From a virus, in the IMG/VR virus record IMGVR_UViG_3300025732_000175, positions 1-31,539 of that record: a stretch of DNA of 31,539 bases. The stretch is one strand, 5' to 3'. The position numbers were made by a program, and so were the translations under genes. The stretch's first letter is position 1. Every line of letters begins with the position of its first letter. The notes under the pieces were generated by a model. It was not told where the DNA came from and ran no database searches. It saw only the letters and a list, made by a program, of their open reading frames with translations. This document shows positions 3,183 through 4,817 of this stretch, one piece after another.

Positions 3183-3493
3183 CCCAGCCCGACCTCTTCG
3201 ACCCTCGCCAGCCCTACAACGGAATGCCCGGATTCAAAGTCTCCGGCCCCTCCCAAGAGGCGGCGGAGAAGGTGAGCGCCCGCGTCAATTACCTGCAAGG
3301 CAAGTGCCTGGAGGCGTTAAGGGCACACGGCCCGATGACCGCCGACGAGATCGCGGAGAAGGTGGGCGAGACGATCCTGTCCATCCGCCCGCGCTGCTCC
3401 GAACTCAAGCGCGCCGGCAAGATCCAGAAAACCGACGCCCGCCGCAAGAACATCAGCGGATGCTCGGCAACCGTGTGGCGCTTGCCATGCTGA
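3179..3493 (+). CDS. winged-helix DNA-binding protein
   Basis: 104 residues, ATGA-coupled to the GapR-like gene. Residues 43-100 form a winged helix: GKCLEALRAHGPMTADEIAEKVGETILSIRPRCSELKRAGKI, with the wing KTDARRKNISGCSATVWRL. This type (MarR-like fold, often annotated as helix-turn-helix domain protein) is common in alphaproteobacterial phages next to small replication and modification genes. The N-terminal 40 residues begin MTQPDLFDP and look flexible. Its 3' end overlaps the methyltransferase start by seven bases, so the two are co-translated. Confidence 0.7.
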   Translation: MTQPDLFDPRQPYNGMPGFKVSGPSQEAAEKVSARVNYLQGKCLEALRAHGPMTADEIAEKVGETILSIRPRCSELKRAGKIQKTDARRKNISGCSATVWRLPC

Positions 3494-4236
3494 AAGTCCT
3501 CGACCTCTTCAGCGGCATCGGCGGCTTCAGCCTGGGCCTTGAGCGCACGGGCGGCTTCAAGACGGTCGCCTTCTGCGAACGCGATCTTTTTTGCCAGCAG
3601 GTTTTGGCCAAGCATTGGCCCGGAGTGAATATCTATGACGACGTATGCAGGGTCACCAGACACGCTTTTGATCGCGATCGAATTGGGCCGCCAGATGTCA
3701 TCTGTGGAGGCTTCCCTTGCCAAGATATCAGCCTCGCAGGAGGGGGCGCGGGAATCCATGGTGAGCGCTCTGGCCTCTGGTTCGAGTACGCCCGAATCAT
3801 TGGCGAGTTTCGACCCAGATACGTCCTCGTGGAGAACGTCTCAGAGTTGCTTGATCGAGGGATGGGCGACGTTCTCGGAGCGTTGGCCGCGCTCGGGTAT
3901 GATGCGGAATGGCACTGCATACCGGCTTCCTACGCTGGTTTGCGCCACCTTCGGGACAGAGTTTGGCTTGTGGCCTACCCCAAACGCCACTGCATTCAAG
4001 GGTGGGCGCCAGTCACCGCGGCGTGGTGTAGCGAATCCAGAGCGGAACAACTGGCAAGACTGGTGCAGCCTCGTGCTTGGCCAACGATATCCGGTGCCCG
4101 AGACCGCGGAACAGGTCATGGGGTTCCCAACGGGACACACCGAAATAGGGCCTTGGGAAATGCCGTCGTCCCGCAAATCCCGGAAATGATCGGCAGGGCC
4201 ATCCTAGCTGCTGAAACAGATGGCGTGAGGGAGTGA
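3487..4236 (+). CDS. C5 cytosine DNA methyltransferase (Dcm type)
   Basis: 249 residues. Motif I DLFSGIGGF (6-14) binds AdoMet; motif IV GGFPCQDIS has the catalytic Cys78; motif VI is ENV (116-118); motif VIII is HLRDRVWLVA (154-163); motif X is RALGNAVVPQIPEMIGRAI (221-239). All catalytic elements are present. The protein is short for the family (M.HhaI has 327 residues) because only about 50 residues separate motifs VIII and IX, leaving a very small target-recognition region. It probably methylates phage DNA against host restriction; no cognate restriction enzyme is evident. GC at third positions drops from 32 of 38 codons to 34 of 60 exactly where another ORF begins inside it. Starts by ATGCTGA overlap with the upstream gene. 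Confidence 0.9.
   Translation: MLKVLDLFSGIGGFSLGLERTGGFKTVAFCERDLFCQQVLAKHWPGVNIYDDVCRVTRHAFDRDRIGPPDVICGGFPCQDISLAGGGAGIHGERSGLWFEYARIIGEFRPRYVLVENVSELLDRGMGDVLGALAALGYDAEWHCIPASYAGLRHLRDRVWLVAYPKRHCIQGWAPVTAAWCSESRAEQLARLVQPRAWPTISGARDRGTGHGVPNGTHRNRALGNAVVPQIPEMIGRAILAAETDGVRE
3635..4189 (+). CDS. overprinted ORF inside the methyltransferase, WPTP/MGFP-type phage protein
   Basis: 184 codons in the +1 frame relative to the methyltransferase, covering its residues 50-234. ATG 3635 has CGGAG nine bases upstream. The product carries SFDPDTSSWRT (58-68), ERWPRSGMMRNG (82-93), LWPTPNA (112-118), VMGFPTGHTEIGP (161-173) and a basic tail. From memory this set of motifs recurs in phage hypothetical proteins found beside cytosine methyltransferases, some much longer with repeated WPTP blocks. 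By hand count 40 of its first 60 codons end in G or C, against 34 of 60 for the enzyme frame here. I think both frames are expressed, but a conserved shadow frame remains possible. Confidence 0.5.
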   Translation: MTTYAGSPDTLLIAIELGRQMSSVEASLAKISASQEGARESMVSALASGSSTPESLASFDPDTSSWRTSQSCLIEGWATFSERWPRSGMMRNGTAYRLPTLVCATFGTEFGLWPTPNATAFKGGRQSPRRGVANPERNNWQDWCSLVLGQRYPVPETAEQVMGFPTGHTEIGPWEMPSSRKSRK

Positions 4237-4449
4237 TCAGCGTGGCAACTTTCGTCTCATTGATGCCAGCGCTCGACCACGTTCTTTCAGAAGCGCGCGG
4301 ATATTGGCCCACACACCGGGCGGGATCGCGTTCTGTCCGGCATCCCAGCGGCGCACCGTGCGGTCAGACACGCCTAAATCGCGGGCAATGTCAGACTGCC
4401 AGCGAGGCCCGTACAGAGCCTCGCCAGCCTCGCGGAGAAGGGCGCTCAC
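4237..4449 (-). CDS. XRE-type helix-turn-helix regulator
   Basis: 70 residues on the minus strand from a GTG at 4449-4447 that overlaps the upstream stop (GTGA). The sequence LREAGEALYGPRWQSDIARDLGVSDRTVRRWDAGQ is a clear helix-turn-helix, followed by IPPGVWANIRALLKERGRAL. Close relatives are frequent in rhizobial plasmids and prophages. Its stop codon abuts the methyltransferase stop with no gap (4236/4237), so the two transcripts converge tail to tail. With the gene upstream it forms the only leftward operon of the early region and is the best candidate for a repressor or immunity regulator; a C-terminal protease/oligomerisation domain is absent. Confidence 0.8.
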   Translation of the reverse strand: MSALLREAGEALYGPRWQSDIARDLGVSDRTVRRWDAGQNAIPPGVWANIRALLKERGRALASMRRKLPR

Positions 4450-4685
4450 GCCGACAGGGTCGCGTTGACGTGGCGCAGGACGGCCTTCGGATCGTCGAAG
4501 ACGGGCGACGGCACGGGATACATGGCAGCGATGTCCTTCCTGTTCGCAATGAACGTCCAGCCCTCGCGCCGGCCGATGCTTGCGATTGCCGGGAAATACT
4601 GAATAAAGCCGATGACGCGCCGGCCCTGATGGACCTTGCGCTGGCCAGTGTCCAATACGGTTTCCATAGTGATTCCAGTGGTCAT
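4446..4685 (-). CDS. hypothetical protein, first gene of the leftward operon
   Basis: 79 residues starting MTTGITMETVLDTGQRKV, with a strong SD (AGGAGG, plus-strand CCTCCT at 4696-4701) ten bases upstream. It ends DDPKAVLRHVNATLSA and overlaps the helix-turn-helix gene by GTGA. The body (GRRVIGFIQYFPAIASIGRREGWTFIANRKDI) looks like a small mixed alpha/beta fold. Not recognised. Being made from the same message as the regulator suggests it works with it, for example as a partner or antagonist, but this is inference only. Confidence 0.7.
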   Translation of the reverse strand: MTTGITMETVLDTGQRKVHQGRRVIGFIQYFPAIASIGRREGWTFIANRKDIAAMYPVPSPVFDDPKAVLRHVNATLSA

Positions 4686-4740
4686 GTCGGTCGGGCCTCC
4701 TGCCCAGATTTGGCGGGCCTAAGCGCCCGTTCATGTCCGG

Positions 4741-4769
4741 AATATAGGACGCAACGCGGCACAATGCAA
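4741..4769 (-). promoter_or_regulatory. sigma70-type promoter of the leftward operon
   Basis: On the minus strand, -35 TTGCAT (4769-4764), a 17-base spacer and -10 TATATT (4746-4741). Transcription would start near 4735 and give a leader of about 50 bases holding a CGGGC/GCCCG hairpin (4714-4718 with 4725-4729) before the SD. This is the best promoter match in the early region, and the inverted repeat could be an operator. Confidence 0.65.
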
Positions 4770-4774
4770 GCCCC

Positions 4775-4817
4775 TGATGGCGCGTCGGCTGGATCAGCAA
4801 AGGTCAGGACCCCATGA
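4775..4817 (+). repeat. boundary repeat A, copy 1
   Basis: Shares an exact 20-base block (4798-4817, CAAAGGTCAGGACCCCATGA) with 5694-5713, plus a shared GATGGCGCG about 15 bases further upstream. Both copies end on an ATG that opens a small ORF. The first copy is non-coding here; the second encodes the end of the DUF6378 gene, so copy 1 looks like a relic of a similar gene. Confidence 0.6.

Follow-up and report, generated by a model that had tools for sequence, protein, structure and literature searches.

The window, that is the whole stretch of 31,539 nucleotides of viral DNA that was analysed, carries a C5-methyltransferase gene, referred to here as alpha, and a second open reading frame, beta, that is overprinted on it. 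Beta reads alpha codon positions 2, 3 and 1 (c2c3c1) and spans alpha residues 50-234. The features of the locus are collected in Table 1. A first-pass annotation had described here a fully open +1 ORF of 184 codons, a CGGAG nine bases before its ATG and a number of motifs in its product, and all of these are present. It had also pointed to a fall in codons ending in G or C. Counts confirm it, at 39/49 for enzyme codons 1-49 against 111/185 for codons 50-234, with 123/184 for the alternative frame, but alone it proves nothing. A 187-aa HTH-type protein is encoded at 4237-4800 on the minus strand, convergent with the methyltransferase gene and just downstream of it. No restriction enzyme was recognised among the scanned proteins neighbouring the window genes. 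Another contig, IMGVR_UViG_3300007234_000175 (L001, L021), encodes an alpha and a beta with 100% protein identity to those of the window.

Table 1. Features of the methyltransferase locus, in window coordinates
Feature	Position	Strand	Remarks
Alpha, C5-methyltransferase large subunit	3487..4236	+	249 aa; motifs I-VIII and X
Beta, overprinted ORF in the +1 frame of alpha	3635..4189	+	184 aa; ATG start
Constrained body of beta	~3779..4156	+	alpha codons ~98-223; from stops, fourfold divergence and dN/dS
Recognition (TRD) region	3976..4107	+	kept in the beta frame, drifts in the alpha frame
Motif IX-like segment of beta, YPVPETAEQVMGFPTGHT (family LNPxWVEWLMGFPxGWT)	4088..4141	+	weak profile match; Rickettsiales-type enzymes
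Motif X of alpha (GNAVVP)	4156..4173	+	G224, N225 and P229 invariant; C-terminal helix in the model
Motif IV of alpha, GGFPCQDIS, with catalytic Cys78	3706..3732	+	invariant columns
CGGAG, possible ribosome-binding site	3621..3625	+	9 nt upstream of ATG 3635
Alternative in-frame ATG of beta	3758..3760	+	near the onset of constraint

Alpha is incomplete when compared with one-chain enzymes. It matches PF00145 with an E value of 3e-40, but only over profile positions 1-164 of 324, and it also matches phrog_363. The profile alignment of alpha to one-chain enzymes stops at motif VIII, motif IX is absent from the alpha consensus and alpha has no recognition domain. In 14 genomes the PF00145 matches commonly fall into two kinds, full ones (1-322) and ones that stop near position 165. 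The window alpha fails the criterion for a one-chain enzyme, a full PF00145 match, in that the recognition domain and motif IX are not in the same chain as motifs I-VIII. It fulfils the criteria for a large subunit of the M.EcoHK31I type, with motifs I-VIII and X present and motif IX missing. The AlphaFold model of alpha (pLDDT 83) overlays M.HhaI over 187 residues with a Z score of 24 and an rmsd of 1.9 A. The small domain is missing from the model, and residues 195-219, at the place expected for the recognition domain, are disordered with pLDDT <50.

The +1 frame of the window gene is open for 186 codons, whereas synonymous-codon shuffles average 114 (p 0.053). This result is only borderline because the sequence is GC-rich. 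The motifs of beta are +1 readings of enzyme motifs (WPTP is read from VAYP and SGMMRNG from LGYDAEW), therefore their recurrence alone is no proof and tests that hold the amino acids of the enzyme fixed are needed. Both points would suit a shadow ORF, a frame without a product in which conserved enzyme motifs and GC-rich codons simply leave no stops. The homologues speak against it. Using the alpha protein, 80 viral loci were retrieved blind to the +1 frame, and these gave 76 distinct genes. In shuffles that preserve the alpha protein and its codon usage the longest +1 run averaged 104.0 codons, against 215.6 in the real genes, and p<0.05 was reached in 67 of the 76. The same test found no excess openness in the +2 frame or the three antisense frames (1-2 of 76). 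Across alpha codons 98-213 there are no +1 stops in 69 of 70 homologues, where the shuffles predict 4.5 +/- 1.9. When 107 genes were scanned, the +1 stop density in codons 90-219 was at most 0.4 per 100 codons, compared with 3-9 at most positions outside this region and mostly 2-10 for the +2 frame inside it. Openness is also significant in groups of low GC, namely a Bacteroides type (GC3 0.38, 5/5), a marine group (GC3 0.41, 36/37) and a Rickettsiales type (6/6). As a control, C5 methyltransferases of the one-chain form were taken from viral contigs and showed no such effect, with a run of 79 codons where 85 are expected and only 1 of 55 significant.

The rates of change show which frame is constrained at each point along the gene. 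They were calculated by the Nei-Gojobori method for the alpha and +1 frames in the clade of the window; the alpha value for codons 50-97 was taken from all 120 clade pairs since the window-only value was saturated. In codons 1-49 dN/dS is 0.17 for alpha and 2.3 for the +1 frame, and in codons 50-97 it is 0.15 and 1.6. The two frames approach each other in codons 98-163 (0.36-0.50 and 0.6). In the recognition region, codons 164-207, they are reversed, with 1.9-2.5 for alpha and 0.06-0.07 for the +1 frame. Codons 208-223 give 0.6 in both frames, and from codon 224 on the values are 0.2 and 1.4. In close pairs the shares of differences at the first, second and third alpha codon positions follow the same course. 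They are.22/.16/.62 in codons 1-49, as in ordinary coding, and.31/.18/.51 in codons 50-163, where the rate at the third position is nearly halved from.504 to.273. In the recognition region they are.65/.19/.17, so that the free position is the first of alpha, which is the wobble position of beta. This pattern occurs in all pairs of the window with a relative, for example 15/3/3 against L005. Fourfold-site divergence drops from ~0.68 to 0.2-0.5 across most of the constrained body. In the one-chain control the shares are.18/.12/.70 and fourfold divergence is flat at ~0.70 in every region. The pairs behind these rates are not phylogenetically independent, though the contrast with the control and between regions is very large.

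Codons 1-97 are thus normal enzyme coding and codons 98-163 are dual coding, and in the recognition region constraint is nearly confined to the +1 frame. It has been demonstrated here that the +1 frame encodes a protein under purifying selection at the protein level. A shadow ORF is already refuted as a general explanation by these comparative tests, and for the window there is next to no chance that it applies. The first-pass annotation had inferred that two proteins are maintained from one stretch, and this is borne out by the near-universal openness and by the low +1 dN/dS of the recognition region. It had named two outcomes that would overturn its proposal, frequent +1 stops beside an intact enzyme and a +1 dN/dS near 1. 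Neither was seen, the former occurring in a single gene of the 70 over codons 98-213 and the latter being absent from the recognition region. Its suggestion that the other frame may shape the recognition region was right but did not go far enough, as it is in that other frame that the region is maintained, and in the enzyme frame it drifts with dN/dS of about 2.

The start of beta is less certain than its body, which is placed at window ~3779-4156 because the frame-wise rates change along the gene. The ORF is open throughout the interval first reported for it, but it is constrained only from ~3779 onward. The first ~48 codons are unconstrained in the +1 frame, so the start at 3635 remains unproven. 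An SD-like tetramer is found at the equivalent site in only 25 of 72 relatives. The equivalent tyrosine codon is TAT, which yields the ATG, in 31 and TAC in 22, compared with 20 and 19 in codons 1-45. The preference for TAT is only weak and the SD-ATG combination is not clearly conserved. In three relatives the +1 ORF starts near codon 90 with GGAGG-N9-GTG, close to the window ATG at 3758, and the +1 frames of the Rickettsiales type are open only from about codon 100. Whether beta starts at ATG 3635, at ATG 3758 or elsewhere is still open.

Beta matches phrog_1008 (E 3e-25, profile positions 34-174 of 329), for which the PHROGs label is 'DNA methyltransferase'. This label is silent on a recognition/motif IX subunit read inside another methyltransferase gene. 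PMC9409062 was considered as a source on phrog_1008 and rejected, as it matched only through phrog_10089. Beta has no Pfam or NCBIfam match, and a search of the PDB with the beta profile gave nothing up to E 10. For beta by itself AlphaFold gave only a poor model (pLDDT 59, pTM 0.25), which has no structural match in the PDB. The C-terminus resembles motif IX (Table 1). The best hhalign match of beta to the one-chain enzymes falls exactly on motif IX, although it is weak (18 columns, probability 1%, P 0.057).

Stronger evidence that beta carries motif IX comes from relatives, and the assignment is inferred from sequence. In Rickettsiales-type enzymes (L122, L127, L129, L295-L297) the motif seen in beta recurs as LNPDWVEWLMGFP in the alpha frame, where it precedes motif X by 16 residues, which is the spacing of the one-chain enzymes. 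It is constrained in the alpha frame (shares.19/.17/.64), while the recognition region of these enzymes is still constrained in the +1 frame (.56/.20/.24). Together with L143 these loci represent a third way to divide one enzyme between two frames. In Streptomyces phage Lilbooboo (L166:2300-3420) alpha ends after motif VIII, and the +1 ORF comprises the recognition region and motifs IX and X. This ORF is annotated only from 2783 (gene 33) and appears to be extended upstream with the conserved beta sequence SFDPDTSTWRTSE. Judged by their motifs, at least three frame partitions exist, and motif IX shifts from one frame to the other without being lost, as expected if both ORFs are parts of one enzyme. 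Because alpha is without the recognition region and motif IX, and motif IX is in frame in the Rickettsiales-type relatives, it is most likely that beta belongs to a split methyltransferase, as its recognition/motif IX subunit, rather than being an unrelated protein.

The absence of a Pfam or NCBIfam match and of a confident fold would leave room for a real beta with an unrelated job, such as a regulator or an anti-restriction factor, that came to lie in a methyltransferase gene by chance. This is highly improbable given that alpha lacks exactly the parts that beta has, that motif IX changes frame among relatives without loss and that PHROGs places the family under DNA methyltransferase. Bacterial copies weigh against it as well. 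In nearly all of the 30 bacterial loci examined the alpha and beta profiles match different frames that overlap; a copy with disrupted frames is the exception, and beta was found only overlapping alpha. These 30 loci were also examined for a one-chain form that keeps both the recognition region and motif IX in the frame of the enzyme, and it was not found.

A single polypeptide made by programmed frameshifting has also to be weighed, with frame 0 used for motifs I-VIII, the +1 frame for the recognition region and motif IX, and a return for motif X. The constrained frame does switch near motif VIII and again near motif X, and some mycobacteriophage copies are split into out-of-frame pieces. We regard frameshifting as very unlikely, however. 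Two shifts would be required, and the +1 constraint begins at codon ~98, about 65 codons upstream of motif VIII, where a shift at VIII has no need of it. Alpha is open through the whole region in nearly all copies, and in Lilbooboo it simply stops.

The architecture is widespread in phages. Beta was found by sequence in 45 phage records from several unrelated hosts. Among 398 genomes sampled from the phylum of G002 it was found in 25, and overlapping pairs are present at these loci too; a plasmid collection gave one Bacteroides match. Annotation is inconsistent. Some records have alpha only, and in Streptomyces phages there are two pieces that are both called DNA methylase. In Vibrio phage 1.236.O (L169:2309-3007) beta alone is annotated, as a 'hypothetical protein', and the methyltransferase is missing from the record. 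In Mycobacterium phage Llama (genes 74/75, L167:2430-3260) both frames appear to be shifted by one indel after motif VI; the two out-of-frame pieces of its alpha may reflect decay, sequencing error or a programmed frameshift. Stops interrupt the beta match in two bacterial copies (L376, L380; G063, G408), which are probably decaying prophage genes. Three bacterial alpha/beta pairs (L405, L406, L407) adjoin a ParB-domain N6/N4 methylase, as a complete or partial match. No restriction enzyme was recognised beside five bacterial copies. Marine phage betas (L183:1501-2601 and neighbours, L176-L208) have up to four WPTP-type modules.

Taken together, the locus very probably encodes a split C5 methyltransferase with a catalytic alpha and a beta that holds the recognition region and motif IX; translation and activity are inferred. 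Such an enzyme is favoured also by precedent, in that two-polypeptide C5 methyltransferases whose small subunit bears motif IX are established (PMC3404938). Alpha would bind AdoMet and supply the catalytic Cys (motifs I-VIII) and the C-terminal motif X helix, and its own reading of the recognition region would be no more than a drifting linker. Beta would supply the target-recognition region, with its WPTP-type modules, and motif IX. It is inferred that the two are translated separately from one message and that beta joins alpha in an active heterodimer, as in M.EcoHK31I; neither the heterodimer nor methylation activity is more than an inference. The likely use of this orphan methyltransferase may be to protect phage DNA from host restriction.

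It could further be suggested, tentatively and with rather more doubt than confidence, that beta is a modular, exchangeable specificity subunit. It would play a part like that of HsdS in type I systems, except that it is concealed in an alternative frame, and with one to four copies of the WPTP module it would provide one alpha with several targets. Recognition modules could be swapped or added without touching catalysis because alpha reads that DNA as a free linker. The marine betas with several modules are possibly multispecific recognition subunits. The remark in the first-pass annotation that some WPTP proteins are too long to be Dcm shadows is explained by the same subunit having more modules, as in the 303-aa beta of L183, which has four.

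What is new is that this architecture is widespread in phages, that the second frame codes for the recognition region and that the enzyme is divided between frames in at least three ways. Evidence of this strength is rare for overprinted genes of DNA phages. In the present case the frame under constraint changes within a single gene, and the one-chain enzymes provide a clean control. Many phage 'Dcm' annotations would cover half an enzyme, and tests of the annotated protein alone, out of context or recoded, would therefore be misleading. The second frame is usually missing from annotations, and beta explains WPTP 'hypothetical proteins'. The relatives with motif IX or X in the other frame form a natural series from one gene to two overlapping genes.

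No paper on an overprinted subunit in phages was found in the literature. The gene for the 176-aa small subunit of M.EcoHK31I lies within that for the 309-aa large subunit and uses another reading frame, and M.EaeI is a two-polypeptide C5 methyltransferase like M.EcoHK31I. The window has the same arrangement, a nested ORF with motifs I-VIII and X in alpha and IX in beta, the nesting in M.EcoHK31I being general background. M.EcoHK31I is a YGGCCR methyltransferase. The window pair differs from M.EcoHK31I in being phage-borne, with no restriction enzyme recognised among the neighbours scanned. A DNA search of E. coli complete genomes with the window gene, for a link to EcoHK31I, gave no match. 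A phage methylase gene can hide a different second frame, as the ShiLan-type HNH endonuclease likewise lies out of frame inside one, but it is a homing insertion of an unrelated nuclease and not an enzyme subunit (PMC11855218). Paracoccus phage Pyei1_p05, which is assumed to have relaxed specificity (PMC6536676), was considered as a possible tested member of the alpha/beta type and rejected, as it is annotated as a single protein of 674 aa.

In artificially split M.SssI and M.HhaI the catalytic and recognition halves work as separate chains (PMC3404938, PMC3439449), but these are engineered fragments in one frame without overprinting. M.AquI is a two-polypeptide C5 methyltransferase split after motif VIII (PMC3404938). 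The Lilbooboo partition is alike, with motifs I-VIII in alpha and the recognition region, IX and X in the second ORF, although there the two ORFs overlap. The window differs from M.AquI in that alpha carries motif X and overlaps most of the beta ORF. In M.EcoHK31I motifs I-VIII and X are on the large subunit and IX is on the small one (PMC3404938). Both polypeptides are needed in vitro, as the 1995 paper of Lee, Kam and Shaw states in its title, which PMC3404938 and PMC4014571 cite. For M.EcoHK31I the predicted TRD was assigned to the large subunit (PMC3404938), which counts against the division inferred here, whereas the rates place the recognition region of the phage family in beta, and the present result bears on that assignment.
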